Source of the DNA: Akkermansia muciniphila
GTDB lineage: Bacteria; Verrucomicrobiota; Verrucomicrobiia; Verrucomicrobiales; DEV007
Length of the DNA stretch: 64,000 nt
Direction: 5' to 3'
NCBI GenBank assembly: GCA_945883495.1
Contig: CAMCXS010000004.1
Location: forward strand, 62,001-126,000
Of the stretch, positions 3,479 through 38,940 are shown piece by piece. The translations under genes and the position numbers were made by a program. Position 1 is the first letter of the stretch. Every line of letters starts with the position of its first letter. The notes beneath the pieces were generated by a model. The model saw only the letters and a program-made list of their open reading frames with translations, was not told where the DNA came from and did no database searches.

Positions 3479-3493
3479 ACCCACGAAACGGAT

Positions 3494-4906: not shown

Positions 4907-4915
4907 GAGTTCTCC

Positions 4916-7425: not shown

Positions 7426-7473
7426 ACTTTCGCCGGGAAAATCGCGTAATCGTGTTCCACCCGCCGGTTTGGC

Positions 7474-7740
7474 CTCCCGCCCTGGCGGGAGTGTGTTCTC
7501 CTCGTCCGGTGCGGCTTCCCGCGGCGGCGGGAACGTGTTCCCCTCGTCCGGCGCGGCACCCCGCAGCGGCGGGAGTGTGCTCTCCTGGTCCGTTGCCGCT
7601 CCCGCGCGGGTGGGAACATGCTTCCCTCGTCCGGTGCACGTTCCCGCGCTCGCGGGAAAGCGTCTCCCCCGTGGGGCGCAGGTTCCCGCCAGCGCGGGAA
7701 GTGTTTTCCCCGAGGTAGACGCGCTCCCGCCCGCGGAATC
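7474..7740. repeat. tandem array of seven 41-42 bp hairpin units
   Basis: Seven degenerate units begin at about 7475, 7516, 7558, 7599, 7640, 7682 and 7723. Each has a palindrome of the form (T)TCCCGC-N4-GCGGGA(A), followed by a semi-conserved spacer such as GTGTTCTCCTCGTCCGGTGC. Palindrome arms covary between units (for example TTCCCGC/GCGGGAA versus CTCCCGCC/GGCGGGAG), which argues for selection or copying of a structure. The period of 41-42 shifts frame from unit to unit, so the open frames across it are not coding. Confidence 0.75.
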
Positions 7741-7787
7741 GTCCACCGGACGCCGGAAGGACAGCTCTCCGTGTCTGGCCACCAGAT

Positions 7788-7815
7788 TCTTTGTGCCTTC
7801 GCGGCTTTGTGCGAG
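7788..7815. repeat. dispersed CTTTGTGCC-type intergenic repeat
   Basis: The segment reads TTCTTTGTGCCTTCGCGGCT followed by TTGTGCGAG. Similar segments occur in the window at 21200-21230 and, inverted, at 21321-21351. They share alternating CTTTG/CTCTG and GCG blocks ending in GCGAG. This kind of sequence is a common intergenic repeat in many environmental bacteria. Confidence 0.4.
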
Positions 7816-7836
7816 CCCAAACCATTCCCGGATTTC

Positions 7837-7975
7837 GCCTCAGACATCCTGAGGCGCCGGGAAACGAGATGAACCGGTGATTCCGTTCAAGCCGGATCGG
7901 CACTGATGAAGCCCGATGGGCTTCCGGATCCAAGCCCAGGGTTGCGGGGAACCCTGGGACACCATCCGCAGCCCC
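7837..7975. repeat. second copy of the 7264-7394 direct repeat
   Basis: Starts with the same CTCAGACATCCTGA (7838 on) and runs in parallel with 7264-7394 through GAGATGAACCGGTGAT, GAAGCCCGATGGGCTTCC and ACCCTGGGACACCATC. It lacks the right-hand terminal inverted repeat of the first copy. It contains an internal 9-bp palindrome, CCCAGGGTT (7935-7943) with AACCCTGGG (7950-7958). The two copies bracket the hairpin array. Confidence 0.7.
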
Positions 7976-7979
7976 GGTT

Positions 7980-8042
7980 CCAACCCCGAAGGCGGTTGCG
8001 GACTCGCGCACCGTGCACCTCCGCAACCACCTTCGGGGTTGG
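7980..8042. repeat. long inverted repeat (22-bp arms, one mismatch)
   Basis: The arms at 7980-8001 and 8021-8042 are complementary at 21 of 22 positions, beginning CCAACCCCGAAGG and ending CCTTCGGGGTTGG, with a 19-nt loop that contains GTGCAC. An AGATTTTCTTG stretch follows, so weak terminator activity is possible. It could also be another small repeat element. Nothing coding is seen from 7279 to 8245. Confidence 0.6.
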
Positions 8043-8245
8043 AAGATTTTCTTGTCCGGTAACCCCAGGGTTTTGCAAACCCAGGGCTGGAATGGGCAAG
8101 CCTTCCAGGCTTGAGCCAGCTTGGCTCATTCCGTTTCCTCACCACCACTTGATCCGGCGTCTAAAGGAGACGCCGTTTGGTGCTTTTCCTGTCAGGTTGC
8201 GCGGCTTCTGGCGTCCGAGGTTTGACCCCGGATCCACCTTTTTCC

Positions 8246-9577: not shown

Positions 9578-9614
9578 CGTGCCGCACTGCGGACGGACGG
9601 ACGGCCTCGGTTTC

Positions 9615-10010
9615 CTACGCGCTTGCGCCTTGCTCGTCCTCTTCGTCCGGCGGGAAAAAATAGAAGATCAGGGATGCGCCGCAGTCCAAGGCCTCGTCCA
9701 TGGTCTCGTAAATCTCCTCAAGCTCATCCTCGTCGAAGTCTTCCGTGGAGTAGGCATCGCGGCCCGCCAGTTCCCAATCTTCAATGCGGACGGGCGTCCA
9801 GTGCTCTTCCTGTATGAGTTCGATGGCCCGGATCTCGGCCGTGCGGAGATCGTCCGCGTCGATCCAGCAGTTGATGACCGCTCCGGAAAATTCCGCCGCA
9901 TCCTCGGCCTCCGGCATCGGCGTGGCCTCGATTTGGATCCGAAAGAGTTCTCCCTCCTTGGTGCGAACGACGGGAGGAATGGTATCGGCGAATAAGTTGG
10001 TGGGTTCCAT
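9615..10010 (-). CDS. acidic hypothetical protein
   Basis: 131 residues from the ATG at 10010 (MEPTNLFADTIPPVV). Very acidic in its second half (YSTEDFDEDELEEIYETMDEAL and the C-terminal PPDEEDEQGASA), with a mixed strand/helix pattern at the front (LFRIQIEATPMPEAEDAAEF). No signal peptide or known motif was recognised. It ends 37 bp from the convergent propeller gene and lies just downstream of the beta-helix gene, with which it may be cotranscribed. Codon use matches its neighbours. Confidence 0.65.
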   Translation of the reverse strand: MEPTNLFADTIPPVVRTKEGELFRIQIEATPMPEAEDAAEFSGAVINCWIDADDLRTAEIRAIELIQEEHWTPVRIEDWELAGRDAYSTEDFDEDELEEIYETMDEALDCGASLIFYFFPPDEEDEQGASA

Positions 10011-10026: not shown

Positions 10027-11100
10027 CTACGGCCGGGGATCAGTCCCATATCGTCCCGCGTTTTCTTCGACCGGCAAGTGCGGTTTCGAACGATCCGGGC
10101 GATCTTCGGCGAACCACTGGTTGTGTTCAAAGCCAAATGTCTCCGGCGCCGTGTTCGGTCCCACATTGACCTCGACCTGAACCTGCGCCCGGTGGAAGAC
10201 AATGCGGTTGTCCGAGATTCGCACGTTGCGGCAGGGGGCGAAACCGTCGGCCTTGGTTTCCTGGAGAATGCGGAAGATCCATTTCTCGGGAAAAAGGATC
10301 GTGTTGCTGGTAAACTCACCGCCGTCCACGCCGACGAAGGCCGCGGCGCACAGTCCGCCTTCGATCACGCAGTCGCGGACGGTCAAGTTCCGGCCTTCCC
10401 ATTTTGCATCGGGAGGGCGGAAGTAATCCAGACCTGTGGAGCCGCCGATGTTCAACGGACGTTGGCCAGCGTTTTGGAACCGGCAGCCTTCCACCACGAT
10501 GTCGCTGGTGCCGCCTTTGAGTTGAATCCCGGCGCTCGCGCTGAAACCCGGTTTGCCGATGAGTTGGCACCCGGTGATGCGGGATTGATGACAGCCCACG
10601 AAGTCGATGCCTTGTCCGCCCCAACCGCTGATCTTGCAGTCCCGGATCGTGAGATTCTCCAAGCCGCTGCATTTGATTCCGTCGTGATTTCCGGTTGGGC
10701 CAATGTCGAGAACCTGAAGGTTTTCCAGCGTGATCCCTTTGACGGGCTGGGTGCGCTCGCCGCCGTCGTCCAGGTTGAGTCCGTTGCGCTTCTGCCCGCG
10801 GATGACAAGGTGGCGAAGAGTCAGGCCGTCGCAGCGGGAGAACTGCAAGCCGGTCTCACCGCCCACAATCCGCGGCGGCGTGGCGGAATCCAGGGCTTCC
10901 ACCGTCAGTTGCCCGATTTCACGGATGTGGTGTCCGCCAGGGTAGTCGCCAGGGGCGATCTGGACACGGTCGCCTGTGGCCACGCTCGCGAGTGTCTCGC
11001 GGAGCTCGGTGGGGGAGCGGACGATCCACTCTTTGGCATTGGCGGGAGGCCCGATCAAAAGGGGCAGCAAGGCCGCGATGGAGCTTCGGAGAACATTCAT
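10027..11100 (-). CDS. secreted right-handed parallel beta-helix protein
   Basis: 357 residues with a signal peptide (MNVLRSSIAALLPLLIGPPANA). The start matches the PbH1/pectate-lyase-like fold: RSPTELRETLASVATGDRVQIAPGDY. Tandem rungs follow, with repeating (V/I)xx(C/N)xI or L(T/V)(I/V)RDC: LENLTIRDCKISG, HQSRITGCQLIG, DIVVEGCRFQN, NLTVRDCVIEG and NVRISDNRIVF. It probably acts on or binds polysaccharide. It is preceded upstream by an AraC-type regulator in the same orientation (55 bp), which may control it. Confidence 0.8.
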   Translation of the reverse strand: MNVLRSSIAALLPLLIGPPANAKEWIVRSPTELRETLASVATGDRVQIAPGDYPGGHHIREIGQLTVEALDSATPPRIVGGETGLQFSRCDGLTLRHLVIRGQKRNGLNLDDGGERTQPVKGITLENLQVLDIGPTGNHDGIKCSGLENLTIRDCKISGWGGQGIDFVGCHQSRITGCQLIGKPGFSASAGIQLKGGTSDIVVEGCRFQNAGQRPLNIGGSTGLDYFRPPDAKWEGRNLTVRDCVIEGGLCAAAFVGVDGGEFTSNTILFPEKWIFRILQETKADGFAPCRNVRISDNRIVFHRAQVQVEVNVGPNTAPETFGFEHNQWFAEDRPDRSKPHLPVEENAGRYGTDPRP

Positions 11101-23072: not shown

Positions 23073-24740
23073 ATGCAACGTCAAATCCTGCCTCAGCTTC
23101 GAGCTCGTTGGGAGCGGGAGGATTTCGATCTATTTCTCTCGCACAATTCCCGGGATAAGCCGGACGTCATCAAGATTGACCAGTACCTGCAACAACGGGG
23201 CATTTTGGGGTGGCTTGATTCCACCGAGTTGCGACATGGGACATCGTGGATCAAAGGACTGGGCCGGGGACTCCGGGAGAGTCCAGCCCTTGTTGCCGTG
23301 CTCGGCGCCGAAATGGGGCAGTGGCAAGAGCAGGAAATTGAGGCCTACCTTCCTCACGCGGTGAAGGCAAACAAACCACTGGTGCCGATCCGGTTACCCG
23401 GCTTTTCCGAAGATCGTTTTGACACGGATGATTCCCTGCAATTTCTCCGTGGACGACACGGCCCGATTCTGGAGAGGATGGATGATTTGTCTCCATTGGA
23501 CAGTCTAGTTGATCATTGCTGCCGAGATCATCGGCAGTTGTCGCCCGGAGAGCCGGGAGAGGATAGCATCAGCGGGTTGCTGCACATCTTGGCCCGAGCA
23601 CAACTTCCAGGCGTTGTCATTCGGCGGCTTGCACGGACCGCATCGGGTGCCAACCACTGGTTTCCGCCGACTTCGGGACTTCTTGGAACACTTTTGGATC
23701 TGAGGACATTGCCAGACGCCAACGGTAATCCGCCATTGCTGTTGTTTGTCGCTCTGGCACTTTCATATCTAGGCGATAACGATTTACGGAATGATGCTGG
23801 CCGTTGGCTACAATCGGAAGTGATTCGAGTGGGTTTGGATCCAAGCCGGGTGCACGAGAAAGCATCGGAGTTGGAGCGAATTCGATCCACACTGGAAACA
23901 GAGAGCCAGCCGAGATTGCAAATCCAGGTGGACGCTCGCCTGGATGAGGAAAACGGGACTGGCGAAATGACGGGCTACATCATCCGTAGCCATCTTCGGT
24001 TTGGAGCAAGCGCCGGGGACATACCGGAAGAGTTGGCTAGAGGTGAGGTGGCCGATGAGACTGGTGTTTACTCAATCTTTGTAGATTTGCTCAAGGATGT
24101 GTTTCAGCTTATGCGGACAAATCGCCTTGACGCTCCACGTTTTCCTTTAGTCCAATTGTTTGTTCCGGTGGAGCTGCTCGACGAGGCGTTTGAGTGGTGT
24201 CATTACAATTCCAGAGACTATGTTGCCGGCGTTTGGCCATTGGTCGTCGCATCGCTTGATCGGCACAAGGATTATGGGGAGTCTGCATGGTCTGCGGAAC
24301 AAAGATTCCGTGAAATCTTGGTAGCCAAGAGCGGCGTTTCGATCGATTGCGTCGAGGAACTTCCAGCAGACGCCGCTGAGTTTGGCCGATTTCTGCGTAA
24401 AAGAAATGCGCACGCCCTGCGCACATCTGGGTGGCAGTTGCAGCAATCGAGTGAAGAGCTGCGAATTTCATTTTTCGAGGAATTGGCACGTTCTCACCTG
24501 CCCGTCATCATCTGGCTCCGGGAGTCCGGGCTGACTGATCAGCCCGTGCTCCGAGCTGAACTCGGCGACGACGTTCTGAAGTGGCCCGACATCGTCCAGT
24601 CCTTTCGGATTGGCCGTTGTAGCGAACACCGGCCCGGAATCGCACCTTCGGAACTGATGTGGCGGCAAGCGGTTTTGTTTTGGGATGATCACAAACGTCC
24701 CTTTCTCCCCACGCCCTTTACTGGATTTTGCTTCGCTTAA
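23073..24740 (+). CDS. TIR-VMAP protein of a VMAP-MoxR-vWA conflict system
   Basis: 555 residues from the ATG at 23073. Residues ~17-120 form a TIR domain: FDLFLSHNSRDK, then GILGWLDSTELRHGTSW (E52 a candidate catalytic residue, uncertain), ALVAVLGAEMGQW and NKPLVPIRLPG. Residues ~290-555 match the VMAP C-terminal domain: LVQLFVPVELLDEAFEWC, WPLVVASLDR, LPVIIWLRESG, and the closing VLFWDDHKRPFLP, equivalent to the family's LLWDDPxRxP motif. Known TIR domains cleave NAD+ or signal; the VMAP is thought to be the sensor/adaptor of MoxR-vWA ternary systems. MoxR follows after 12 bp. Possible immune or abortive-infection role; this is inference. Confidence 0.82.
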   Translation: MQRQILPQLRARWEREDFDLFLSHNSRDKPDVIKIDQYLQQRGILGWLDSTELRHGTSWIKGLGRGLRESPALVAVLGAEMGQWQEQEIEAYLPHAVKANKPLVPIRLPGFSEDRFDTDDSLQFLRGRHGPILERMDDLSPLDSLVDHCCRDHRQLSPGEPGEDSISGLLHILARAQLPGVVIRRLARTASGANHWFPPTSGLLGTLLDLRTLPDANGNPPLLLFVALALSYLGDNDLRNDAGRWLQSEVIRVGLDPSRVHEKASELERIRSTLETESQPRLQIQVDARLDEENGTGEMTGYIIRSHLRFGASAGDIPEELARGEVADETGVYSIFVDLLKDVFQLMRTNRLDAPRFPLVQLFVPVELLDEAFEWCHYNSRDYVAGVWPLVVASLDRHKDYGESAWSAEQRFREILVAKSGVSIDCVEELPADAAEFGRFLRKRNAHALRTSGWQLQQSSEELRISFFEELARSHLPVIIWLRESGLTDQPVLRAELGDDVLKWPDIVQSFRIGRCSEHRPGIAPSELMWRQAVLFWDDHKRPFLPTPFTGFCFA

Positions 24741-24752
24741 GTCACTCAACTT

Positions 24753-25790
24753 ATGGACCCGTCTCCCACCTCGGCAGTCGACCGCCGCGTTTTCCGAGCC
24801 CTCCCACCGGATCAACTTCCGGAGCCGGGCGTCGGCGCGGCGAACCTTGAGCATTTGGCTCCTCCTCCGCCATGGAGGCAATATTTGGAAACCCAGGATC
24901 AAATCCGGGGAGAAGGGTTCGTGGCTCCACCTGGGCTGGACGTGCTGATCAACACCGCGTTGATTTTGCGACGTCCCATTCTTGTCGAGGGGCACCCGGG
25001 TTCTGGAAAGACCTCTCTCGCGTATGCCGTCGCCCGGGAACTCAATCTGCCCGGGCCATACCGATGGTCCGTTACCTCCCGCTCCACGCTCCAAGACGCG
25101 CTTTATCAGTATGATGCGATCGGACGGCTTCACACCGCCAATCTGCCAGCAAAGCCGGGGGGAGGGGAAAGAGAGGACTGCGTCGAGGATTACCTTCGCC
25201 TCGGCCCCCTCGGGATGGCTTTTGTTCGTTCAACGAAAGCTTCTGCGGAACAGCCAGCTCGACCGGCGGTGCTTTTGATCGATGAGATCGACAAGAGTGA
25301 TATCGATCTTCCGAACGATCTGCTGCACGTTTTTGAGGAAGGTTGGTTCGAAATTCCGGAACTGCTGCGAGATCGTCGCAATGAGCACCTCGTGCTCCCA
25401 CACCGCACCCGTCTCACGGCGGGAACCGAGGAACGCGTTTTGGTCAAAGGCGGCGTGGTGAAGTGCGAGGAGTTTCCGTTCGTGGTGATGACCAGTAATA
25501 GCGAGCGGGAGTTTCCACCTGCATTCTTGCGGCGCTGCCTGCGTGTTGAGATGAAGACACCGGCGAACGTCGATGACTATCTCGCGATCGTTCGCAACAG
25601 GTTCCGTGACTCGAACCTCAACGCCGTTGAGCCCAAAGTTCGGAAACTGATCGAGTCCTATCTGACGGAAATCTCCGAGAAAAAGCTTCTGCTCGCGACG
25701 GATCAGCTCCTCAACGGGATTCACCTCCTCCTTGAGCACGGAGATGTCAGCGAAGAGGTAAAGCGGCTGATTTTTCAGTCATTGCGCTGA
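24753..25790 (+). CDS. MoxR-family AAA+ ATPase
   Basis: 345 residues. Walker A GHPGSGKTS at about residue 79, Walker B VLLIDEIDKSD near 173, sensor-1-like MTSNSEREFPPAFLRRC near 250 with an arginine finger candidate, and a C-terminal helical lid. The N-terminal ~45 residues (PPPPWRQYLETQDQIRGEGFVAPPGL) resemble the MoxR lid-proximal segment. MoxR ATPases act as chaperones with vWA partners through a MIDAS; here the partner would be the next gene (28 bp downstream). It lies between the TIR-VMAP and vWA-FGE genes, completing the ternary operon. Confidence 0.9.
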   Translation: MDPSPTSAVDRRVFRALPPDQLPEPGVGAANLEHLAPPPPWRQYLETQDQIRGEGFVAPPGLDVLINTALILRRPILVEGHPGSGKTSLAYAVARELNLPGPYRWSVTSRSTLQDALYQYDAIGRLHTANLPAKPGGGEREDCVEDYLRLGPLGMAFVRSTKASAEQPARPAVLLIDEIDKSDIDLPNDLLHVFEEGWFEIPELLRDRRNEHLVLPHRTRLTAGTEERVLVKGGVVKCEEFPFVVMTSNSEREFPPAFLRRCLRVEMKTPANVDDYLAIVRNRFRDSNLNAVEPKVRKLIESYLTEISEKKLLLATDQLLNGIHLLLEHGDVSEEVKRLIFQSLR

Positions 25791-25818
25791 TCGGTGGGAG
25801 CAACCGTCACGACTGCTG

Positions 25819-28800
25819 ATGTCTTTAGATACGAAGTCAGGTCACTCCTCCGCGTTCCTCCGGAGCTGTGGAGTGGGTGGTGCGGACGCCCGTCCGGCAC
25901 GGGACGTGGCGGACGTCCTTTACCTTGCCGCTTATGTAGACCGGTTGCTCGCGTCAGCAGAGAAGCAACCCCAGCCCCAGGAACCCCAGCCCAGCGCCCC
26001 CAGCGACTCGCAAGCGAAAAGACCGGAGCCACCAACTGAGTCGGATTCTTCGGTGTCTGCATCAGAAGATCAGGCGGCATCACCGAACGTAGATGTTTCC
26101 GCTCCGGCTCCCGGGAGCGAGCAGGCGGAGCAATCGTTGCGGCATCGGGATCTCGCCTTCTCGGCATCCGCAACGGCGCCGCTTCAGGTTCCTGAACCCA
26201 TTGCCGTTCCGGACACACGGGAACTAGCCAAAGCTTTACGCCCGCTCAACCGGCGGGTCCGGAAAGGCCTGGCAACAGAACTGGACCCAGACGCCTCCGC
26301 GGAAGCGACGGCACGAAATGCCGGACGCCTCATCATCGTGAAACGTCCGGCAGAGCGGCGGTGGATTAGTCTGCACGTGGTGTTCGATTCCGGCCGGTCG
26401 ATGGATTTTTGGAAAGCCGCTCACCGGACCCTGATTCGGATGTTTGCGCGGCAGGGCGCTTTTCATCGGCTCCGCTTTTGGACGATGTCCCCGCACGGGG
26501 CTGAGGTGTATCCCCTGGCAGACGGGAACGGAAGCCGATCATCAGGTCACTTGGTGCCGCTTACCGAAGACGAAATCATTCTCGTCGTTTCAGATACGCT
26601 CGGTCCTCACTGGCGGGATGGCACCGCACTGATCAGGTTGCGGGAATGGGGGCTGTCCCATCCTTGTGCTCTATTGCACCTGTTCCCTTCCACGATGTGG
26701 AAACGGACTGCCCTAGCTGACGCGGTCCTCTGCGAGCTATCCTCCGTTGAGCCACTTGAACCGAACCGAACGCTTCGGGTGACGCGACGAGGAAGAGCAT
26801 TGCTGAGCGAAGAACCGGGTATCCCCGTCTTTAATCTGAGGTCTCTGCATGTCCGCTCCTGGGCGCGGCTGCTCGCCGGCATTGGCAAAAGCAAGATCGC
26901 AGGGATTTTGCCGGGCCGTGGCGCAAAAGAGCCCGAATCTGCCGCAGGATCCACGCCCGATCAACTGTTGACCGCGTTCATGCAGTCGTCCAGCCCGGAG
27001 GCCGGTGCGCTTCTTCGGTCCTTGGCTGCCGCACCGCTATCACCGCCAGTCATGCGTCTGATCCAGGCTGCGTGGCTTCCGGACTCCCGCCATTGGCACC
27101 TTGCCGAGGTCGTTTTTGGTGGACTGCTTCGCCTCGTGGAACTGCCGGATGCAGTGACTCGGAGCCGCTCGGAAGGCATGTATTTCGACTTCGTGCTGGG
27201 TGTGCGTGAGCGAATTCTCGACGCCATGCCCCGTCAGCATTTCCTCGATGTGAGGAAGAAAGCCTCGGAGTATTTGGTGAAGCTTGGCTTTGGTGATGAT
27301 GAATTTGAACTCCTTCTGGAGCAGCCCGAAAGCATCCCTCAAAGCGGTGGGCGTGGCTGCGCACTTCCGGTGGCTTCGTTGGACGCAGCTCTGTTTGAGC
27401 GCTTGGGTGAACGTTATCAAGGAGTGGCGAGCCGTTTGCGTCGCCTCGCCGGATTGGAGCGCGATGGTGTCGGGGACGCAGTATCAGATGAAGTTTCCCC
27501 CGCCTCCGGCAGGAGGGAGCCATTCGTAAACTCCATCGGCATGACCATGCTCGGCATCCCCTCGGGCACGTTCACCATGGGCAGTCCGGCGGATGAATCA
27601 GGGCGGGATAATGATGACTTCCCCCAGCATGAAGTCACTTTGTCCCATCCCTTCTGGATCACCCAAACCCCCGTCACCCAGAAGCAGTGGAAGGATGTGA
27701 TGGGGACGACCGTCGCGCAGCAGGAGGCCAAGGGAGATGCGTACGGAGAAGTGACCGGCACTGGGGAAGATCACCCGGTCTATTTCGTAAACTGGGAGGA
27801 AGCCCTCCGGTTTTGCGACCGCCTCACGGAAAGGGAGAATCGCCGCGCCGAGGGCTTGGCTTACTCCTTGCCGACCGAAGCCCAATGGGAATATACCTGC
27901 CGGGCCGGGACAAACGGTTCCCAAAACGTTCCCGGCATCGAGTTCACCGAACTGGGTTGGTTTCGCGACAACAGCGAGCAGACGACCCATCCCGTCGGCA
28001 CGAAAACGCCCAATGCCTGGGGCCTTCACGATTGCCACGGCAATGTTTGGGAATGGTGCGCGGATTGGTTCGAGCGGAGCACGAGCACCGTTCCGATCAC
28101 GGAACCGCAGGGACCACCAAATGGTGAGTACCGTGTGGTGCGCGGCGGGGGCTGGGACCACGATGCTCAGGGCTGCCGCTCAGCGTTCCGCGTCTATGAC
28201 GTTCCTGGTGGGCGGTTCGACTACATTGGTTTCCGCCCAGTCCTATCCCTTGTACGGCAAAGAGAAGCGCAGGGCGCGCTCCCTCCCGAGCCGGAGGTCC
28301 AGGAGGAAGCCGCCCGGAGCGTCCGGCCGCATTTTGTCCCCATCAAGGCGGGAACTTTCCTCATGGGCAGCCCGGGGACCGAGGACGGGCGACTCGACCG
28401 GGAGGATCCCCACCAAGTTACCCTGACCCGGGATTTCGAGATCGCGGACGCGCCGGTGACGCAAGCCCAGTATGAGGCGGTCATGGGGACCAACCCGAGC
28501 CGCTTCAAGGAATCCGGTCCCGATGCTCCCGTAGAACAGGTGAGCTGGCACGACGCCGTTGCCTTCTGCGACAAGCTCACCGCAGAGGATCCCAACTGGA
28601 TCTATCGCCTCCCCACGGAAGCGGAATGGGAATACGCCTGCCGCGCTGGAACCACCGGTTCCTACAACGTGGGCAACGCCGACCCTGCCGCCCTGGGATG
28701 GTTCAGAGCGAATTCTAGGGGCAAGACGCATCCGGTCCGGGAAAAGGCAGCCAACCCTTGGGGACTCTACGACTGCCACGGAAATGTTTGGGAATGGTGC

Positions 28801-31800
28801 CAGGATTGGTTCGCCGAAAATCTGGGCGCCAAGGCGCTGCGGGACCCGCAGGGTCCAGACTATGGTGTCCTCCGCGTGCTGCGCGGCAGTTCCTGGTACA
28901 ACGACAACGCCATGAATCGCCGCGGGTTCGATCCCGGCTCCCGAAGCGACGGCTTTGGTTTTCGCCCTGTCCGATTGAAAAGAATAGCGGAGGGCAACGC
29001 GCCTGAGCCCGTGCCGACGCAGGAGGCAAAGGTTAAGGCCGGAGCCCGGAGCGCCGAATGGACGGCCCGCGACTTTGAAGTCCCCGTCGCCCCAGGCATG
29101 AAAATGCTCTGCATCGGTGCCGGAAACTTCCTCATGGGCGAGGGAACTGAAGCCCACCCGGTCACCCTCACCGAAGATTTCTTCATCGCGGAAACCCCGG
29201 TCACCCAGGCGCAATACGATGCGGTGATGGGGAAGAATCCGAGCCGGTTCAAGGAGGTTGGCCCCGATGCGCCCGTGGAGCAGTTGACCTGGGACGATGC
29301 GGTGGCCTTCTGCCAAAGGCTTTCTGCGGCGGATCCGGTGTGGATGTATCGACTTCCCACTGAGGCGGAATGGGAGTATGCCTGCCGGGCGGGTACGACC
29401 GGGGACTTCAACCTGGACGGAGCCGATCTTGCTGACTTGGGATGGTTTAAAGCGAATTCTGGGCAAACGACGCATCCGGTGCGCCAAAAACTACCCAACG
29501 CTTTCGGTCTCTACGACTGCCACGGCAATGTCCGGGAATGGTGTGCGGACTGGTACCTGGAAACTCTCGGTACAGAGAGCGCCACCGATCCCCAGGGCCC
29601 TGCCGATGGGGTCGATCGGGTGGCGCGGGGCGGTGGATGGAACTACCACGAAGGAGCCTGCCGCTCCGCGTCTCGACGCGAGGGGACTCCAGATTTGCGC
29701 GACGACCAGATTGGTTTCCGCCCCGTCCGCGTGAAGCGAGCAGTCGATATTGACACAGGTGTTGCGCCCAAAGGACGGAGCCCCGATTTGCTCGCCCGCG
29801 ACTTTGTAGTCGCCGCCGCCCCAGGCATGAAAATGCTCTGCCTGGGTGCCGGAAACTTCCTCATGGGCGAGGGGAGTGAAGCTCACCCGGTCACCCTCAC
29901 CGAAGATTTCTTCATCGCCGAAACCCCGGTCACTCAGGCGCACTACGAGGCGGTCATGGGGACCAACCCGAGCTATTTTAAAGAAGCGAGGGCCGATGCG
30001 CCGGTGGAGACGGTGAGCTGGGACGATGCGGTGGCCTTTTGCGCCAAGCTCAATCAGATCGCCGAGCCGGAGCACGGCTGGGAATGGGCCCTCCCCTCCG
30101 AGGCGCAGTGGGAATACGCCTGCCGTGCGGGGACGACCACGGCTTATTCCTGGGGCGACGAGTTCGTGGAGGGGAAAGCTAACGTCGAGAATGACGAGGG
30201 AACGAGCGAAGACAAGGAGGTCGCTTACTTTCGTTCACGGGGATTGCCGGTGAAATCCACGATGCCAGTGCGAACCTTCGATCCGAATCCCTGGGGCCTT
30301 TACGATTGCCACGGCAACGTTTGGGAATGGTGTGCGGACTGGCATGGCGAGTACCCCAAGGAAGCCGTCGTGGATCCGCAAGGTCCAGAAAGTGGTGGCT
30401 ACCGCGTGCAGCGCGGCGGTTCCTGGCGCGACTCCGCCCTGATCTGCCGCTCCGCGTACCGCAGCAGGCCCGTCCCTGGCATCCGCTTCCACGACTTCGG
30501 TTTTCGCCCAGTCCTAACCCGGAAGAAACAAGCGGAGGGCACCGAGCCTGAGCCCGTGCCGACGCAGGAGGCCGAGGTGAAGGCCGGAGCCCGGAGCCGC
30601 CCGGAGGACTACGTCGCGGCGGACTTCGTGAATGGACTGGAAATGGGGATGGTCTGTGTGCCACCGGGTATGTTCACGATGGGCAGTCCAGTGGGCGAGA
30701 GAGGCCGGGAATCGGAATCCTGGATGGCGAAGGAAACCCAGCACCAGGTCACCCTGACCGAGCCGTTCTGGATCGCGAAAACTCCGGTGACCCAAGACGC
30801 TTGGCAGACGCTCATGGGCTCCACCGTGGCGGAGCAGAAGGCCAAGGGCAACGCCTTCGGCGAGGTCACCGGCACCGGCGACGACCATCCCGCCTATTTC
30901 GTGAACTGGGAGGACGCGCTGGCCGCCTGCGACCGGCTCTCCATCCGGGAACGGGACGCCGGGCGGTTGCCGGACGGGTATCTCTACACCCTGCCGACCG
31001 AAGCACAGTGGGAATACGCCTGCCGCGCTGGGACCGAAGGACCCTTCAACGTGGACGGCACGAGCCACCAAGATTTGGGGTGGTATCGGGACAACAGCGA
31101 AGGCTCGACACATTCCGTCGCTGAGCGAGCGCCAAACGCCTGGGGCCTTTACGACTGCCATGGTAATGTCTGGGAATGGTGCTCGGACCTTTTACAGGAG
31201 GATCTCGGTGCAAAATCCGCCACAGACCCTCAGGGGCCGACCAGTGGTTATGAACGCGTGCTGCGCGGCGGTTCCTGGTCCAACTATGCCCTGCGCTGCC
31301 GCTCCGCGTACCGCCTCGGGGGGATTCCTAGCTTCCGCAAAGGTGACATTGGTTTCCGCCCAGTCCTCTGCCCCCGGAAGCAAAGAACGGATCTGTCCGT
31401 GCTGCCGACGGAGCTGGAGGCCGTGGCGCAGCCCGAGCCGCAAGCCCCGACGGCGGCCGGACAGATTCGACAGGTGTTTGTACCGATCCGGCCCGGGAAG
31501 TTTCTCATGGGCAGTCCGAGGAATGAGAAGGATCGTGAACCCGGCGATGCGAAGGAAACCCAGCACGAGGTGACTTTGACGCACGCTTTCGAAATCGCCG
31601 ACGCGCCGGTCACTCAGGCCCAGTACGAAGCGGTGGTGGGAACGAATCCGAGCCGGTTCAAGGAATCCGGGTCCGATGCGCCGGTCGATCAGGTGAGCTG
31701 GGAGGACGCGATGGAGTGGTGCCGCAAGATGTCCGAGACTGATCCGCACTTCGAGTATCGCCTCCCCTCCGAAGCGGAGTGGGAGTATGTCTGCCGCGCC

Positions 31801-33159
31801 GGTACGACTACAGCTTTTCATTTCGGGAACACTCTCAACGGCAACGAGGCGAACTGTGATGGAAATTTCCCCTACGGAATTGGGGAAAGCGGACCGTTTT
31901 TGAGACGAACGTCGCCAGTGAGAAGGTATGCTCCGAATGCTTGGGGCGTTTACGATTGCCACGGCAATGTTCTGGAGTGGTGCCAGGACTGGTATCAACA
32001 GAATCTGGGTGCCCAGCCGGTTATGGACCCGCAAGGACCCGCGAATAGTTTCGCTCGTGTGGTTCGCGGCGGGTCCTGGCGGCACAGTGCCAAGCTCTGC
32101 CGATCTGCGGAACGTGATGGATACGGTCCGGAATCCCGCGACGATAGCATTGGGTTCCGTCCGGTCAGAATGAAAAAAACGGAGGGTAGCGACCTGGATG
32201 ACGTGGCGCCCACCAAGCCCCAAGACTCGACCTCTGCTGGACTTCGTAGTCCCGACTTTATCCCTTTGCAGGACGAGAATCTGTTACGGAGCCAGCGAAC
32301 GGGACGTGATCGGGTGGACGCGGTGCTTAGGGCTGCGGCAAAGCCCGACGAGCCATCTTTGTCCACAGACGGACCTCGCCGTAGTTTGAGCTTTGTCTCG
32401 GTCCCACCTGGTAAGTTTCTCATGGGAAGTCCGCGAAGTGAGCGAGGACATTCTGATGATGAAGCTCAGTATGAAGTGACCTTTTACCTGGGATTTGAGA
32501 TCTGCGTCACTCAGATTACACAGGCTCAGTATGAGTCCGTCACTGGCACTAACCCGAGCCATTTCAAGAAGTCGGGCTCCGATGCTCCAGTGGAAATGGT
32601 GAGCTGGCACGATGCAAACGAGTGGTGCCGCCGGATGTCGGCCATCGACGTGGACTACTTCTATCGTCTCCCGACCGAGGCAGAGTGGGAATACGCTTGC
32701 CGTGCCGGTGCCAAGGGAGCTTTCAACGTCGACAGTGCAACGCTGGATGAACTCGCCTACTACTCGGAGAACTCGGGAGGGAGAACGCATCCCGTCGGTG
32801 AGAAGCGCTCCAATGCCTGGGGTTTGCATGATTGCCACGGGAACGTCTGGGAATGGTGTGCGGACTGGTATGGGAATCGTCTGAGAACCCCGGCGAACCT
32901 AAGTCCGGAATTGCCGTCCCATGGTGAGGACCGTGTGCTGCGCGGCGGGGCGTGGGACGGTGTCGCCCAGAACTGCCGCTCAGCGAACCGGTTCAGAAAC
33001 ATTCCTATCATCCGCGCTTCAAACATCGGTTTCCGGCCCGTCCGAACCAAGAAACACCTGATCACCGAGCCAGCCGCCGTGGCGCAGCCCGAGCCGCAAG
33101 CCGGAGCCCGGAGCCCTCGTCGCGGCTGGTTTGGCGGGATGTCTGGAGGCAAACGATAG
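25819..33159 (+). CDS. giant vWA (SAV_2336-type) protein with seven FGE/SUMF1-like domains
   Basis: 2446 residues. Residues 1-140 are a low-complexity Pro/Gln/Glu-rich lead. Residues ~145-370 carry a vWA-like domain (RWISLHVVFDSGRSMDFWKAAHRTL, MIDAS-like DSGRS). Residues ~370-560 are a helical region of the SAV_2336 type. Seven FGE-sulfatase (C-type-lectin fold) domains follow at about 567-812, 835-1058, 1078-1307, 1323-1571, 1594-1855, 1883-2122 and 2190-2412. Each has (F/T)MGSP or LMGEG, the APVTQAQY motif, LP(T/S)EAxWEYxCRAG, DCHGNVxEWC and a final (I/F)GFRPV. The catalytic Cys pair of true FGE is lost, so binding is more likely than formylglycine synthesis. Ends in a basic tail, SPRRGWFGGMSGGKR. 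Third gene of the operon. Confidence 0.85.
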   Translation: MSLDTKSGHSSAFLRSCGVGGADARPARDVADVLYLAAYVDRLLASAEKQPQPQEPQPSAPSDSQAKRPEPPTESDSSVSASEDQAASPNVDVSAPAPGSEQAEQSLRHRDLAFSASATAPLQVPEPIAVPDTRELAKALRPLNRRVRKGLATELDPDASAEATARNAGRLIIVKRPAERRWISLHVVFDSGRSMDFWKAAHRTLIRMFARQGAFHRLRFWTMSPHGAEVYPLADGNGSRSSGHLVPLTEDEIILVVSDTLGPHWRDGTALIRLREWGLSHPCALLHLFPSTMWKRTALADAVLCELSSVEPLEPNRTLRVTRRGRALLSEEPGIPVFNLRSLHVRSWARLLAGIGKSKIAGILPGRGAKEPESAAGSTPDQLLTAFMQSSSPEAGALLRSLAAAPLSPPVMRLIQAAWLPDSRHWHLAEVVFGGLLRLVELPDAVTRSRSEGMYFDFVLGVRERILDAMPRQHFLDVRKKASEYLVKLGFGDDEFELLLEQPESIPQSGGRGCALPVASLDAALFERLGERYQGVASRLRRLAGLERDGVGDAVSDEVSPASGRREPFVNSIGMTMLGIPSGTFTMGSPADESGRDNDDFPQHEVTLSHPFWITQTPVTQKQWKDVMGTTVAQQEAKGDAYGEVTGTGEDHPVYFVNWEEALRFCDRLTERENRRAEGLAYSLPTEAQWEYTCRAGTNGSQNVPGIEFTELGWFRDNSEQTTHPVGTKTPNAWGLHDCHGNVWEWCADWFERSTSTVPITEPQGPPNGEYRVVRGGGWDHDAQGCRSAFRVYDVPGGRFDYIGFRPVLSLVRQREAQGALPPEPEVQEEAARSVRPHFVPIKAGTFLMGSPGTEDGRLDREDPHQVTLTRDFEIADAPVTQAQYEAVMGTNPSRFKESGPDAPVEQVSWHDAVAFCDKLTAEDPNWIYRLPTEAEWEYACRAGTTGSYNVGNADPAALGWFRANSRGKTHPVREKAANPWGLYDCHGNVWEWCQDWFAENLGAKALRDPQGPDYGVLRVLRGSSWYNDNAMNRRGFDPGSRSDGFGFRPVRLKRIAEGNAPEPVPTQEAKVKAGARSAEWTARDFEVPVAPGMKMLCIGAGNFLMGEGTEAHPVTLTEDFFIAETPVTQAQYDAVMGKNPSRFKEVGPDAPVEQLTWDDAVAFCQRLSAADPVWMYRLPTEAEWEYACRAGTTGDFNLDGADLADLGWFKANSGQTTHPVRQKLPNAFGLYDCHGNVREWCADWYLETLGTESATDPQGPADGVDRVARGGGWNYHEGACRSASRREGTPDLRDDQIGFRPVRVKRAVDIDTGVAPKGRSPDLLARDFVVAAAPGMKMLCLGAGNFLMGEGSEAHPVTLTEDFFIAETPVTQAHYEAVMGTNPSYFKEARADAPVETVSWDDAVAFCAKLNQIAEPEHGWEWALPSEAQWEYACRAGTTTAYSWGDEFVEGKANVENDEGTSEDKEVAYFRSRGLPVKSTMPVRTFDPNPWGLYDCHGNVWEWCADWHGEYPKEAVVDPQGPESGGYRVQRGGSWRDSALICRSAYRSRPVPGIRFHDFGFRPVLTRKKQAEGTEPEPVPTQEAEVKAGARSRPEDYVAADFVNGLEMGMVCVPPGMFTMGSPVGERGRESESWMAKETQHQVTLTEPFWIAKTPVTQDAWQTLMGSTVAEQKAKGNAFGEVTGTGDDHPAYFVNWEDALAACDRLSIRERDAGRLPDGYLYTLPTEAQWEYACRAGTEGPFNVDGTSHQDLGWYRDNSEGSTHSVAERAPNAWGLYDCHGNVWEWCSDLLQEDLGAKSATDPQGPTSGYERVLRGGSWSNYALRCRSAYRLGGIPSFRKGDIGFRPVLCPRKQRTDLSVLPTELEAVAQPEPQAPTAAGQIRQVFVPIRPGKFLMGSPRNEKDREPGDAKETQHEVTLTHAFEIADAPVTQAQYEAVVGTNPSRFKESGSDAPVDQVSWEDAMEWCRKMSETDPHFEYRLPSEAEWEYVCRAGTTTAFHFGNTLNGNEANCDGNFPYGIGESGPFLRRTSPVRRYAPNAWGVYDCHGNVLEWCQDWYQQNLGAQPVMDPQGPANSFARVVRGGSWRHSAKLCRSAERDGYGPESRDDSIGFRPVRMKKTEGSDLDDVAPTKPQDSTSAGLRSPDFIPLQDENLLRSQRTGRDRVDAVLRAAAKPDEPSLSTDGPRRSLSFVSVPPGKFLMGSPRSERGHSDDEAQYEVTFYLGFEICVTQITQAQYESVTGTNPSHFKKSGSDAPVEMVSWHDANEWCRRMSAIDVDYFYRLPTEAEWEYACRAGAKGAFNVDSATLDELAYYSENSGGRTHPVGEKRSNAWGLHDCHGNVWEWCADWYGNRLRTPANLSPELPSHGEDRVLRGGAWDGVAQNCRSANRFRNIPIIRASNIGFRPVRTKKHLITEPAAVAQPEPQAGARSPRRGWFGGMSGGKR

Positions 33160-33394: not shown

Positions 33395-33534
33395 TCCTTC
33401 CTTCGGACTGCTGAGACTCGTCTCAGCCTTCAGAACCGAAGCTCGCTGAGGTTCCCGGTGGCGCAGGGAAAGAGCGTGAGAAGCGAAGAGCGTGAGAAAG
33501 CAGCAGCGCCTGATCGGCTTGGTGAGAAGGCGGC
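33395..33534. repeat. module-boundary repeat, copy A
   Basis: Includes CTTCGGACTGC, the palindrome TGAGACTCGTCTCA, ACCGAAGCTCGCTGAGGTT and GAGCGTGAGAAGCG...GTGAGAAAG, and ends GCCTGATCGGC. Other copies: B 34612-34658 (right half only), C 36402-36520, D 37275-37327 (right half), E 38047-38185. Each lies just after the last gene of a module. Confidence 0.75.
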
Positions 33535-34407
33535 TTAGCCTTGCCGCAGCGCTGCCATGAACTCATCCAGTGAAGCGCAGAGAGCTGCAGTGCGTTGCAG
33601 GGAAGCGAGGCGATCTGCCCCTGAGGCGCGCCCCAATTCCTCGATTGCATTGCCAGGGAGAACTCCAAAACGGGCTTCGAGAACCACTTGAATCGCTCCG
33701 CGTTGACCCTTCTGAATGCCTTTCTCGATGCCTTTCTCGATGAGTTCCCGACCGGCACAGGTTTCTTCAACGGGAGGGAGATCTTGGATCATGGCGTGAA
33801 TATCCTGGGAGTTGCGCTTTTTGAAGCGTTGCATCAAGAGTTGCACGAAAATGGTCGTGAAGCAATCCTGGTCCTCTTCGTCGAGTTCCGGACTGGCACG
33901 CAGTGCGGCGTAGTCCTGGGCGGCTTTGGTTTCCACTTCGGTATCCTGGTCCTCCACCATTGGTCGCAACAAGGAAACGAGGGGACAGACGGGAACATCG
34001 CGTTCCAACGCCACCAGCCGCTCGTTGAGGAAGATGCGCCGGATGTGCGGAAACGCTTCCGGGCCAGCGACTTCAACCGATCGATCCGAGAAGACAACCA
34101 CGGCGGTCACCTCTCGGGGCACGTAGTCCCGGCGTCGGCAGTCGCGCGTGGGATTGAGGCGGCGCCATTCCAGCAGCCGGGCCAAGTCGGTGCGGATCAG
34201 GACGGAGTGATCAAAGTAAAACTGGAATTCCCAGATCTGGCAAGGCTGCGCGGAATCCTCCGGAACGACCACCAGATCACACTCCGTTTTGGGCTTGAAG
34301 ACCTTTGGGCCAGCCTCCGCCACCGGCGGCATGGGGCTTTGCGACAACAACCCCAGCCAATCGGGACGCTGGGTGAAGATCTGAGAGAAGGTGCGATCCG
34401 TTTCCAC
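33535..34407 (-). CDS. Rpn/DUF2887-type putative nuclease
   Basis: About 290 residues from a GTG at 34407 (followed by ETDRTFSQIFTQRPDWLGLLSQSP). The PD-(D/E)XK-like core is TECDLVVVPEDSAQPCQIWEFQFYFDHSVLIRTDLARLLEWRR, with E and Q-F near the active strand, then VTAVVVFSDRSVEV. The C-terminus has ELIEKGIEKGIQKGQRGAIQ, the EKGxxxG repeat typical of Rpn (recombination-promoting nuclease) and DUF2887 proteins. The frame upstream of 34407 runs into repeats and FGE-gene remnants and was excluded. A truncated paralogue lies at 38185-38940. These proteins nick or cleave DNA and often multiply in genomes. Confidence 0.65.
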   Translation of the reverse strand: METDRTFSQIFTQRPDWLGLLSQSPMPPVAEAGPKVFKPKTECDLVVVPEDSAQPCQIWEFQFYFDHSVLIRTDLARLLEWRRLNPTRDCRRRDYVPREVTAVVVFSDRSVEVAGPEAFPHIRRIFLNERLVALERDVPVCPLVSLLRPMVEDQDTEVETKAAQDYAALRASPELDEEDQDCFTTIFVQLLMQRFKKRNSQDIHAMIQDLPPVEETCAGRELIEKGIEKGIQKGQRGAIQVVLEARFGVLPGNAIEELGRASGADRLASLQRTAALCASLDEFMAALRQG

Positions 34408-34711
34408 GAGTGGGTTTCCCTCGCGCGAAAACGGATTGGCGGCAAGGGCACCGTTTGGCCAGGATAGCGCGTTTCGATGCGTTTCCGATGGGCCGCCGAC
34501 GGGTCTGAATGAAAAAGCGGAGGGCACCGCGCTGGCGGCCGTGGCGCAGCCCGAGCCGGTCTCCAGAGCCCGCGTCGCGGCTGGTTTGGCGGGCTGTTTG
34601 GAGGCGGTCGGTGAGAGCGTGAGAAGCAGAGAGCGTGAGAAAGGAGCAGGGCCTGATCTTTTCTCTAACTTTCTCACTTTCCACGTTGCAACGGTCCTCT
34701 GACGATAGAAA
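34408..34711. other. intergenic stretch with FGE-gene remnant and boundary repeat B
   Basis: 34478-34611 on the plus strand matches the 3' end of the giant vWA-FGE gene (AVAQPEP..., then the RRGWFGGLFGG-like tail in shifted frames). It is directly followed by boundary repeat B (34612-34658). No intact gene. Confidence 0.55.
34478..34611 (+). pseudogene. remnant of the 3' end of a vWA-FGE gene
   Basis: The DNA encodes, with frameshifts, fragments equivalent to GFRPVRxKK, AVAQPEP and a SPRRGWFGG-like end, aligned with 33010-33159. The reading frame is broken (LNEKAEGTALAAVAQPEP in one frame). This shows at least one further FGE-type gene end was once present here. Confidence 0.55.
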
Positions 34712-36028
34712 ATGATCCGAGTCATGAGGACGGTCGTTGCGATTCCAAAGGATGGACGCTTCCATTCCGAAGCACTTTCTGACGCTTCTTTGTCGGAAAA
34801 ACACTTGGTCATCCAGGAGGAGAAAGAGCATCCCGCGCATGGTCCGGTGCTGGGAAAGATCGGAATAGAACCTGCCCCGCGCCCTGGAGGAGGCAATGGG
34901 AACCCAGCGTTGGTAAAATCCGCTGTCGCTCCCTCGTTTGTCCGCCTGCCTTACTTAGGTGCCTATATCATCCGCGCCAAGACCAACCAGCAGGTCAGGG
35001 AAGTGGAGGAGGCTTTCGGTGAAGAATATGCATTTGCCGAAGATGTCGATGTTCCCCTCATTCACGCCTCCGGAGGCGGGCCGCGGGGACCCAGGTCGCA
35101 TCCGGATCGAGCGTGGCCGGACGATTCTGGAGTCCACCTTGCGCATCAGCAGGGAATTCGTGGCAATGGGGTCAAGGTCGCGGTGCTGGACACCGGCTGC
35201 GACAACGATCATGTGCAATTCGACCACCAGGACGTGGCTTTCCGCTACGTTTCTCCGGCGTCGCCGGTTTCCCTCCGCGCGGTTCGCGGCTTTGATCCGG
35301 GAGGACATGGAACCCATGTCTGCGGCATCGTCGCGGGCAAGAACACTGGGGTCGCTCCGGACGCTTCTCTCTTGGTGGCGTCGGTGATCGAGAGTGAACG
35401 GAACGAAACCTCGATTCGCCGCATCCTGACCGCCCTGGACTGGGTTCTGTCCAGTGTGTTTGCGGATGACCACAATGGCACCGCCAGCGAACCGGTCATC
35501 CTCAACTTCTCGTTCGGGTTCAGTGCCAATTCGTTGTCGAACGCGTCGGTCGCGGCGTTGCTTGATACCTTGCGGGCCTCAATGCGCATCTTGCTCCACG
35601 ACTTCGATGTGCTGCCGATCGTTGCGGTGGGGAATGAGGGGCAAGGCATTGCGAGGTATCCGGCGATTTACCCCGAATGCCTTTCCGTAGGGGCCGTGAA
35701 TTTTCAGAACGAGGTAGCCGACTTTAGTGGGAGCGGTAACTTTCAGGTTGATGGCCAAACAAGGATGGTTCCTGAAGTTTCCGGCTACGGGCACGAAGTT
35801 TATTCCGCCTTGGAACGGAATCAGCAGAACCGCAGCGTCTACGCCAAAAAAAGCGGTACCAGCATGGCGACCCCATATGTTTCCGGAATTGCCGCCCTCT
35901 ACGCCTCCCAAGAAGACGGCAGTTTGCGTGGTTTGGCGCTGCGGGATCGATTGCTGAAAACGGCTCTTCCACTTCCGACGCAACCTACCGGGCGCGTCGG
36001 CAAAGGCTTGGCAAGATTTGTGCCGTGA
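34712..36028 (+). CDS. subtilisin-like serine protease (S8)
   Basis: 438 residues (ATG 34712; ATG 34724 also possible). No signal peptide, so probably cytoplasmic. Catalytic triad: Asp in VAVLDTGCDNDH (about residue 160), His in GGHGTHVCGIVAG (about 200), Ser in SGTSMATPYVSGIAALY (about 384); the oxyanion Asn is likely in VGNEGQG. The first ~140 residues may serve as a prodomain. The small gene at 36032 starts 3 bp after this stop and may encode an inhibitor. S8 peptidases occur as effectors in bacterial conflict loci, but a link to the nearby VMAP operon is only by proximity. Confidence 0.88.
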   Translation: MIRVMRTVVAIPKDGRFHSEALSDASLSEKHLVIQEEKEHPAHGPVLGKIGIEPAPRPGGGNGNPALVKSAVAPSFVRLPYLGAYIIRAKTNQQVREVEEAFGEEYAFAEDVDVPLIHASGGGPRGPRSHPDRAWPDDSGVHLAHQQGIRGNGVKVAVLDTGCDNDHVQFDHQDVAFRYVSPASPVSLRAVRGFDPGGHGTHVCGIVAGKNTGVAPDASLLVASVIESERNETSIRRILTALDWVLSSVFADDHNGTASEPVILNFSFGFSANSLSNASVAALLDTLRASMRILLHDFDVLPIVAVGNEGQGIARYPAIYPECLSVGAVNFQNEVADFSGSGNFQVDGQTRMVPEVSGYGHEVYSALERNQQNRSVYAKKSGTSMATPYVSGIAALYASQEDGSLRGLALRDRLLKTALPLPTQPTGRVGKGLARFVP

Positions 36029-37383: not shown

Positions 37384-37877
37384 ATGGCCGCAGCCGATAC
37401 CTTCGCTTATCTCGATGCCCGGGTCGAGCGTCCGGGCGAAGAGGTTTTGGCTGACCGATTCCGATTGATGGCCGCCAAGATCGAGGAGAATCCGCTGCTC
37501 TTGGCGATTCCTCTGGAGAACGTGGAGCGGTGGCTCGCTCAGGGGCATTCCGCGGCGGAACGGTTGACGGAGTGGCGTGGCTTGCTGATCGAGGCGACCG
37601 TTTCGGAGGCCGGACTCGCGAAGCTTTTGGAATTGCTCCGGGACCAGTCCGCCGAAGCCGTGTTCTTCAAGGAATTCGCTCCGATGCCGGGGATCTTGAC
37701 TCGGGAAGAACTCGACAGGCACTCTTGGACCTCGGCGCATTAGAGCGATTGATCGAATCGGGGCGCATCGAACGTTCTATCCTGGCCACCCGGTTGGCCA
37801 CCATGGGTTATGAGCCGGCGCTGATGGCTGAATGCGGACGGGTGATGGAGGAGATCCTTGGCCAGGTGGATGTCTGA
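37384..37877 (+). pseudogene. frameshifted hypothetical helical protein
   Basis: The first part (37384-37713) reads MAAADTFAYLDARVERPGEE and runs to ILTREEL. The second part continues in another frame as RQALLDLGALERLIESGRIERSILATRLATMGYEPALMAEC and ends EEILGQVDV at 37877. The two halves join smoothly if one base was lost near 37713 (expected CTCCGACAG, seen CTCGACAG), so the gene is broken or needs a frameshift. The family was not recognised. An FGE remnant starts immediately at 37877. Confidence 0.5.
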
Positions 37878-38040
37878 AAACAGCATCATCGGCTTCCGCC
37901 CAGTCCGAATGAAAAAAGCGGAACGAACCGAACCGGGGGCCGTGGCGCAGCCCGAGCCGGACCAAACTCTCACGAGTTCGGCTACTGCCCAGAGCCCGCG
38001 TCGCGGCTTGTTTGGCGGGTTGTTTGGAGGCAAACGGTAG
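37877..38040 (+). pseudogene. second remnant of the 3' end of a vWA-FGE gene
   Basis: In one open frame it encodes ENSIIGFRPVRMKKAERTEP, then GAVAQPEP and a tail SPRRGLFGGLFGGKR, nearly identical to the C-terminus of the giant gene (IGFRPVRTKK; AVAQPEP; SPRRGWFGGMSGGKR). Only the last FGE strand and the tail remain. Followed by boundary repeat E and the second Rpn gene, exactly as the intact gene is followed by repeat A and the first Rpn gene. Confidence 0.7.
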
Positions 38041-38046
38041 GAATGC

Positions 38047-38185
38047 CTTCCTTCGGACTGCTGAGACTCGTCTCAGCTTTCAGAACCGAAGCTTGCTGAG
38101 GTTCGCCTGGCGCAGGTGGAAGAGCGTGAGAAGCGGAGAGCGGGAGAAAGGAGCAGAGCCTGATCGGCCTGGTGTAAAGGCGGCT
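38047..38185. repeat. module-boundary repeat, copy E
   Basis: Nearly identical to copy A: CTTCGGACTGCTGAGACTCG, TCTCAGC, ACCGAAGCTTGCTGAGGTTC, GAGCGTGAGAAGCGGAGAGC and GCCTGATCGGC. Confidence 0.8.
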
Positions 38186-38940
38186 CACTCTTGCTGCAGC
38201 GCCGCCATGAACTCGTCCAGCGAAGCGCAGAGCGCCGCAGTGCGTTGCAGGGAAGCGAGACGATCCGGTCCAGACGCGCGCCCCAATTCTTCGGCCACGC
38301 CGTTGGGGAGAGTTCCAAACCGAGCTTCGAGAAAGCCTTGGATCGCGCCGCGCTGGCCTCGCTCTATGCCCTTCTCTATGCCTCGCTCAATTCCTTTCTC
38401 AATGAGTTCCCGACCGGCGCAAGTTTCTTCAACGGGTGGGAGATCTTGGATCATGGCGTGAATGTCCTGGGAGTTGCGCCGCATGAAGCGTTGCACGAAG
38501 AGGGTCGTGAAGCAACCCTGGTCCTCTTCGTCGAGTTCCGGACTGGAGCGGAGTGCAGCATAGTCCTGGGCGGCTCTGGATTCTACTTCGGTATCGCGGT
38601 CCTCCACCATGGGACGCAACAAGGAAACCAGGGGACAACCTGGAAGATCCCGTTCCAACGCCGCGAGCCGCTCGTTGAGGAAGATGCGCTGGATGTGCGG
38701 AAACGCTTCCGGGCCCGCGGCCTCCAAGGAACGATCCGAGAAGACCACCACAGCGGTCACTTCCCGGGGCACGTAGTCCCGGCGTCGGCAATCGCGTGTG
38801 GGATTGAGGCGGCGCCATTCCAGCAGTCGGGCCAAGTCGGTGCGGATCAGGACGGAGTGATCAAAGTAAAACTGGAATTCCCAGATCTGGCAAGGCTGCG
38901 CGGAATCCTCCGGAACGATCACCAGATCACACTCCGTCTT
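38185..38940 (-). pseudogene. 5'-truncated second Rpn/DUF2887-type nuclease
   Basis: From KTECDLVIVPEDSAQPCQIW to the end FMAALQQE it matches the protein at 33535-34407 closely (for example AQPCQIWEFQFYFDHSVLIR identical). The ~60 N-terminal residues are missing; the frame beyond 38940 is unrelated and coincides with a copy of the GGCC-palindrome repeat. The C-terminal EKG repeat is longer by one unit (IEKGIERGIEKGIERG). It could still be translated from an in-frame ATG at 38967, but is probably inactive. Confidence 0.65.

Follow-up and report, generated by a model that had tools for sequence, protein, structure and literature searches.

A putative VMAP-type conflict system in Akkermansia muciniphila with seven FGE-fold modules that appear to derive from targets of a diversity-generating retroelement

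Ternary conflict systems composed of a VMAP protein, a MoxR ATPase and a protein with a vWA domain were described by Kaur et al. 2020 (PMC7159879). In the passages of that paper which deal with these proteins, TIR is listed among the N-terminal domains of VMAP and FGS among the C-terminal domains of the vWA protein, while the sensing of invaders is assigned to the variable middle region of VMAP and the effectors to the vWA protein. Versions with three tandem C-type lectin (CLec) modules diversified by diversity-generating retroelements (DGRs) were described by Doré et al. 2024 (PMC10907252), who proposed these modules as sensors, called the function untested and left the role of the DGR-diversified CLec modules as antigen sensors open. 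We analysed a stretch of 64,000 nucleotides of Akkermansia muciniphila (contig CAMCXS010000004.1, positions 62,001 to 126,000), hereafter the window, which contains an operon that we assign by its domains to this described kind of VMAP-type ternary conflict system, with a predicted function against invaders. In this operon the vWA-like protein carries seven modules with the fold of the formylglycine-generating enzyme (FGE), and we interpret this array as a germline-fixed, expanded and DGR-derived sensor within a known kind of system.

The three open reading frames (ORFs) share the + strand and are separated by gaps of 12 and 28 bases, in agreement with the tight operon of the original prediction. 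The first protein, predicted to join a TIR to a VMAP-like domain, matched both profiles above the Pfam curated cut-offs: TIR_2 (PF13676) with E=1e-15 and VMAP-C (PF20028) with E=1e-9 (39 bits for a cut-off of 27). Its VMAP-C domain also aligned with those of eight other VMAPs (hhalign, E=1e-7), and the motif originally quoted for it, VLFWDDHKRPFLP, is present. By phmmer the TIR domain matched AbTIR and other bacterial TIRs (7uwg, 8g83, 7uxr) with the catalytic Glu aligned; this residue occupies the position found in NADases, and a NADase activity is predicted. The second gene product contains GHPGSGKT and LLIDEID and shows, over the matched segment, 38-49% identity to the ATPases that actinobacteria and cyanobacteria encode at the corresponding place of their VMAP loci. 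Its description as a MoxR AAA+ ATPase is supported by these Walker motifs and by this kinship but not by AAA_3, the Pfam MoxR model, for which it scored 13 bits against a cut-off of 27; it scores with PF00004 instead. In the third protein, of 2446 amino acids, seven stretches matched FGE-sulfatase (PF03781, 1044 bits in total) and the N-terminus matched SAV_2336_NTERM (NF041121, 327 bits for a cut-off of 200). Pfam vWA had no match in this protein and the vWA-like label rests on NF041121. The genome holds only one VMAP-C domain and one SAV_2336 domain.

The placing of the operon among the ternary VMAP/MoxR/vWA systems is backed not only by these profiles but also by the same gene order in relatives, since a survey of other genomes found that G218, G398, G453 and two cyanobacterial loci (L076 and L077) share the VMAP-MoxR-vWA arrangement. 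In G218 the genes encode a trypsin-VMAP (trypsin assigned by eye), a MoxR and a vWA-GTPase protein, and in G453 a DUF4062-VMAP, a MoxR and a vWA-VipA-VipB-TIR protein. G398, from the family of the window genome, has at locus L198 a consecutive set formed by a caspase protein, a MoxR, a vWA-FGE-FGE protein, an HRDC accessory gene, a reverse transcriptase (RT) and a template repeat (TR); in the first of these proteins Pfam finds a caspase domain and no VMAP-C. In G400, of the same family, a TIR protein, a MoxR and a vWA-FGE protein follow each other in the same order. The pairing of TIR with vWA-FGE is therefore not unique, with the reserve that VMAP-C is sub-threshold in G400, where it aligned end to end by hhalign yet below significance. 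The distribution of the operon type is patchy: within the order to which the window genome belongs, 5 of 289 genomes have it.

Two further loci were observed among relatives. The SAV_2336/vWA protein of G453 (L207, contig C99, 6163-10263, minus strand) is fused to VipA and VipB of the contractile sheath of the type VI secretion system and ends in a C-terminal TIR, its gene adjoining the MoxR and DUF4062-VMAP genes; the word 'sheath' is absent from the text of Kaur et al. (PMC7159879). In the genus of the window genome, a MoxR-type ATPase gene at locus L183 (G525, contig C100) precedes one whose product has three FGE modules, probable membrane segments and no SAV_2336; this is putatively another ternary-like sensor.

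With the systems of Kaur et al. (PMC7159879) the locus shares the three genes, the enzymatic domain at the N-terminus of VMAP and the variable domains at the C-terminus of the vWA protein, the FGS domain being last. It differs in that the passages of that paper concerned describe vWA proteins with FGS almost only from cyanobacteria and mention no array of several FGS modules, whereas here FGS occurs in another phylum with seven modules in one 2446-aa chain. The systems of Thiohalocapsa PB-PSB1 (DGR 4/5) and Marichromatium (PMC10907252) likewise have tandem CLec modules bearing variable repeats (VRs) behind a vWA N-terminus, MoxR and VMAP neighbours, and possibly templates that act in trans. 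However, their modules are three and actively diversified, whereas here there are seven, whose VRs have diverged and for which no template was found to match. A further comparison is given by the G398 locus, which has the caspase-fold protein, MoxR and vWA-FGE-FGE genes, a SAV_2336 N-terminus and VR-bearing modules, but only two modules, a complete DGR in cis (HRDC accessory, RT and TR) and a caspase in place of the TIR.

The nearest relative of module 1 in the PDB by sequence is TvpA, the DGR variable protein of Treponema denticola (E=1.6e-28), ahead of all catalytic FGEs, and the AlphaFold2 model of module 5 (pLDDT 80) had TvpA (2Y3C) as its top Foldseek match. TvpA has the same FGE/C-type-lectin fold and a C-terminal variable region, although it is a single-module, DGR-linked surface protein outside any ternary system. 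In module 1, which was the copy aligned to the FGE of S. coelicolor, the copper-site Cys pair of the catalytic enzyme is absent, an Asp and a gap standing at the two positions; the column of the first Cys belongs to the hypervariable set and also varies in the other modules. Because of the kinship with TvpA and of the missing Cys in the aligned copy, the modules are most likely binding domains. The proposal of Doré et al. (PMC10907252) that such arrays are sensors is strengthened here.

The pattern RVxRGGSWxxxAxxCRSAxRxxxxPxxRxxxIGFRPV is followed, more or less closely, by the 37-residue ends of six of the seven window modules and of six modules from a paralogous array, located on contig C128 of the same genome; the end of module 2 has lost four residues with respect to this pattern. 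Over these 12 full-length VRs, the columns that are adenine codons in the TR of the DGR on contig C187 have an entropy of 2.72 bits and the other columns 0.48 (Mann-Whitney p=2e-7). When three corresponding pairs of window and C128 modules (W1/C1, W4/C4 and W5/C5) were compared, identity at the AAC columns was 0.21, 0.33 and 0.70 at codon positions 1, 2 and 3, the module bodies (four pairs, W2/C2 added) giving 0.82, 0.84 and 0.60, with 0.60 at 4-fold sites. In the AAC columns, divergence at positions 1 and 2 exceeds both that of neutral sites (Fisher p=1e-6) and that of the third position in the same codons (p=8e-5); the third position itself does not exceed neutral sites. The VRs of the collected DGR-type loci, used as a positive set, gave 0.29, 0.30 and 0.89. 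The variability is confined to columns that correspond to adenine codons in related TRs, and there to positions 1 and 2 over position 3. Since the variable columns coincide with templates of the same genome, the modules are akin to TvpA and the G398 system of the same family is coupled to a DGR, we infer a DGR ancestry, and the module ends would be fossil VRs of a former DGR target.

Four loci with an RT domain were identified in the genome, two of which are DGRs with a TR. That on contig C187 is composed of an HRDC accessory gene, RT, TR and a VR-bearing target, with 11 of 11 TR/VR differences at adenines, and that on contig C64 (RT and TR) has 12 of 13 such differences at adenines. In G398 all 37 VR-TR differences fall at adenines, its two VRs having 17 and 20 differences from the adjacent TR. 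A further locus on contig C76 (L047, 6918-8213) is DGR-like, with an HRDC accessory and a TR-like stretch, and no RT was detected there by RVT_1. On contig C11 (L046) we also observed a gene for a TIR-nSTAND1-FGE protein with a VR-like end (2795-5602) and, 2 kb on, another VR-like fragment (7792-7902); no RT was found on this contig.

None of the TRs compared, either from the same genome or from relatives, fits as donor of the array. At the DNA level the comparison covered, in this genome, the TRs of C187 and C64, and the window VRs showed 22-37 non-adenine differences per VR. Compared with the TRs of G394, G422 and G493, 22-42% of the non-adenine sites differ (match 0.58-0.78). A six-frame profile search of the genome found no further TR fitting the array, and the codons conserved among the window VRs show synonymous differences from one VR to another (synonymous identity 0.60). 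As no compared TR matches the array, the VRs are read as fossil. The assembly is 96% complete in 206 contigs, with breaks beside the DGRs, and a matching template may be located in the unassembled part of the genome. The array could in that case be the active target of a DGR acting in trans, as happens with the ternary-system targets of PB-PSB1 (PMC10907252), and the presence of several DGRs in the genome next to contig breaks is in line with this. We nevertheless consider it highly improbable, because of the number of non-adenine differences from the C187 and C64 templates, because one active template would erase the synonymous changes seen among the VRs at conserved codons, and because neither the six-frame search nor the TRs of relatives provided a fitting template.

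Some observations weigh against reading the array as a fossil DGR target that became a sensor. The 64-kb window shows no remnant of an RT, an accessory gene or a TR. An excess of C at third codon positions, which AAC template codons would be expected to leave, was seen against the within-gene background (91 observed, 66 expected) but was dropped as proof of a DGR since the controls were similar: third-position C reaches 73% in this array, 64% in the C128 array and 58% in the controls, eight FGE genes chosen as non-DGR. Third-base composition therefore fails to separate arrays from controls, and some of these controls look VR-like. Strong diversifying selection without a DGR could also randomise positions 1 and 2. 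The loop variability would then result from ordinary positive selection on duplicated lectin modules, with a DGR never involved, and the control FGE genes do have variable loops and some third-position C excess. Such an explanation is unlikely in our view, given that the modules are nearest to a DGR variable protein, that their variable columns fall on the adenine codons of templates belonging to this genome's own DGRs and that a ternary system of the same family, in G398, is DGR-coupled.

The other points concern the proteins and their roles. The metal-site motif (metal ion-dependent adhesion site) of the third protein reads D190-S-G-R-S194, that is DxGxS and not DxSxS, and is partly degenerate; with this reserve, and those on the Pfam vWA and MoxR profiles, the predicted architecture is confirmed. 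The AlphaFold2 model of the TIR-VMAP protein (11 VMAP rows) reached a pLDDT of 49, was left out of the fold search and gives no structural support for VMAP. In addition, the view expressed in the relevant passages of Kaur et al. (PMC7159879), with sensing in the middle of VMAP, would make the FGE array an effector or a scaffold, VMAP the sensor and the TIR output secondary. We find this division of roles rather unlikely, as the hypervariable surface sits in the FGE modules and the module aligned lacks the copper-site Cys pair that FGE needs for catalysis.

Taking these points together with the evidence for a DGR-derived sensor, we consider it probable that the operon is a conflict system with a multi-headed sensor array derived from DGR target modules, operating in the following way. 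Each of the seven C-type-lectin-fold modules in the vWA protein would use a face of its own to bind ligands derived from the invader. The vWA-like domain would relay binding to the MoxR AAA+ ATPase, and this enzyme would remodel the VMAP protein and release the TIR domain. The released TIR would hydrolyse NAD+, either to deplete it or to produce a signal molecule, and the infected cell would stop, which would amount to an abortive anti-phage role. The faces of the modules may first have been varied by a DGR through adenine-directed reverse transcription; the varied modules would then have been tandem-duplicated and the matching DGR lost or left behind, leaving faces that are germline-fixed and now drifting. 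The operon might instead serve housekeeping signalling or development, for example the control of aggregation, considering that the function is called untested by Doré et al. (PMC10907252). This seems quite improbable, for the exchange of TIR, caspase, trypsin and DUF4062 at the same place in relatives and the patchy presence within the order fit conflict systems better.

The size of the array also sets this locus apart. SAV_2336 open frames above the cut-off measure 794-1557 aa in 292 cyanobacterial genomes, one 352-aa fragment being left out, and 932-1474 aa in four genomes that share the order of the window genome, versus 2462 aa here; this comparison is one of frame lengths. In the class of G637 (a Burkholderiaceae record), the 369 genomes sampled had only sub-cut-off matches to SAV_2336 and so gave no array sizes to compare. 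It had been suggested that the exact combination may be undescribed. This holds for the seven modules, which appear to be new, but not for the components, as the literature already has VMAPs with a TIR, vWA proteins with FGE/CLec domains and tandem arrays of three CLec modules (PMC10907252 and the corresponding passages of PMC7159879).

Table 1. Features of the operon and of the decayed gene ends downstream (positions in the window)
Feature	Position	Strand	Remarks
TIR-VMAP gene	23073..24740	+	ATG 23073 is the start of the original prediction; ORF may begin at ATG 22968
TIR domain	23133..23402	+	PF13676
Putative catalytic Glu, residue 123 of TIR-VMAP protein	codon 23334-23336		W+4; in the alignment, at the Glu of solved bacterial TIR NADases
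VMAP-C domain	24126..24689	+	PF20028; FWDD motif at its end
MoxR-type AAA+ ATPase, VMAP-associated kind	24753..25790	+	Walker A 24990-25013, Walker B 25272-25292
Putative sensor protein, 2446 aa	25819..33159	+	SAV_2336/vWA-like N-terminus, seven FGE-fold modules, short basic tail (SPRRGWFGG..)
SAV_2336 N-terminal (vWA-like) domain	25897..27276	+	NF041121, 327 bits
FGE module 1	27526..28242	+	VR-like end 28132-28242
FGE module 2	28306..28971	+	VR-like end 28873-28971, shorter by four codons
FGE module 3	29086..29727	+	VR-like end 29617-29727
FGE module 4	29824..30513	+	VR-like end 30403-30513
FGE module 5	30616..31365	+	VR-like end 31255-31365; AlphaFold2-modelled, top solved match TvpA 2Y3C
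FGE module 6	31456..32166	+	VR-like end 32056-32166
FGE module 7	32371..33042	+	VR-like end 32932-33042
Decayed 3' end of another sensor-gene copy	34512..34650	+	..AVAQPEP.., SPRRGWFGGLFGG.R stop, frame-shifted; repeats D6/D7
Second decayed sensor-gene 3' end	37860..38038	+	NSIIGFRPVRMKK..SPRRGLFGGLFGGKR stop; repeats D6/D7

The paralogous array on contig C128 (L048, 1-5088) contains at least six FGE modules, has the same tail and is cut by the contig edge. A gene for a DUF4062-NACHT-FGE protein (7067-9964) is found near this second array. In the window, both decayed 3' ends downstream of the operon are recognisable by ..SPRRGxFGGLFGG.. followed by a stop, and sensor-gene copies have therefore been gained and lost at the locus. 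Between these two ends lies a gene for a subtilase (34712-36028; PF00082, 1e-38), possibly an extra effector. A long interspersed repeat is present at 33396-34125 and 38046-38775 in copies about 87% identical, and again on L048 at 10153-10750 (90%), with copies of the short motif AGAGCGTGAGAAGC around.

We are tempted to suggest, tentatively and as a serious possibility, that a hypermutating DGR recognition system became here a fixed gene-encoded repertoire, the binding faces made by the DGR being locked in and multiplied into a seven-headed sensor, with a six-headed paralogue on another contig, and retained in the TIR operon although the matching DGR was lost. If true, a bacterial adaptive recognition system would have been turned innate by tandem duplication, and tandem duplication followed by fixation is suggested as a second route to a repertoire besides live hypermutation. 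The seven-module array with its fixed faces would be a ready test bed, through ligand screens and the TIR output, for the question of CLec modules as antigen sensors, and the DGR-coupled relative in the same family allows a direct comparison.
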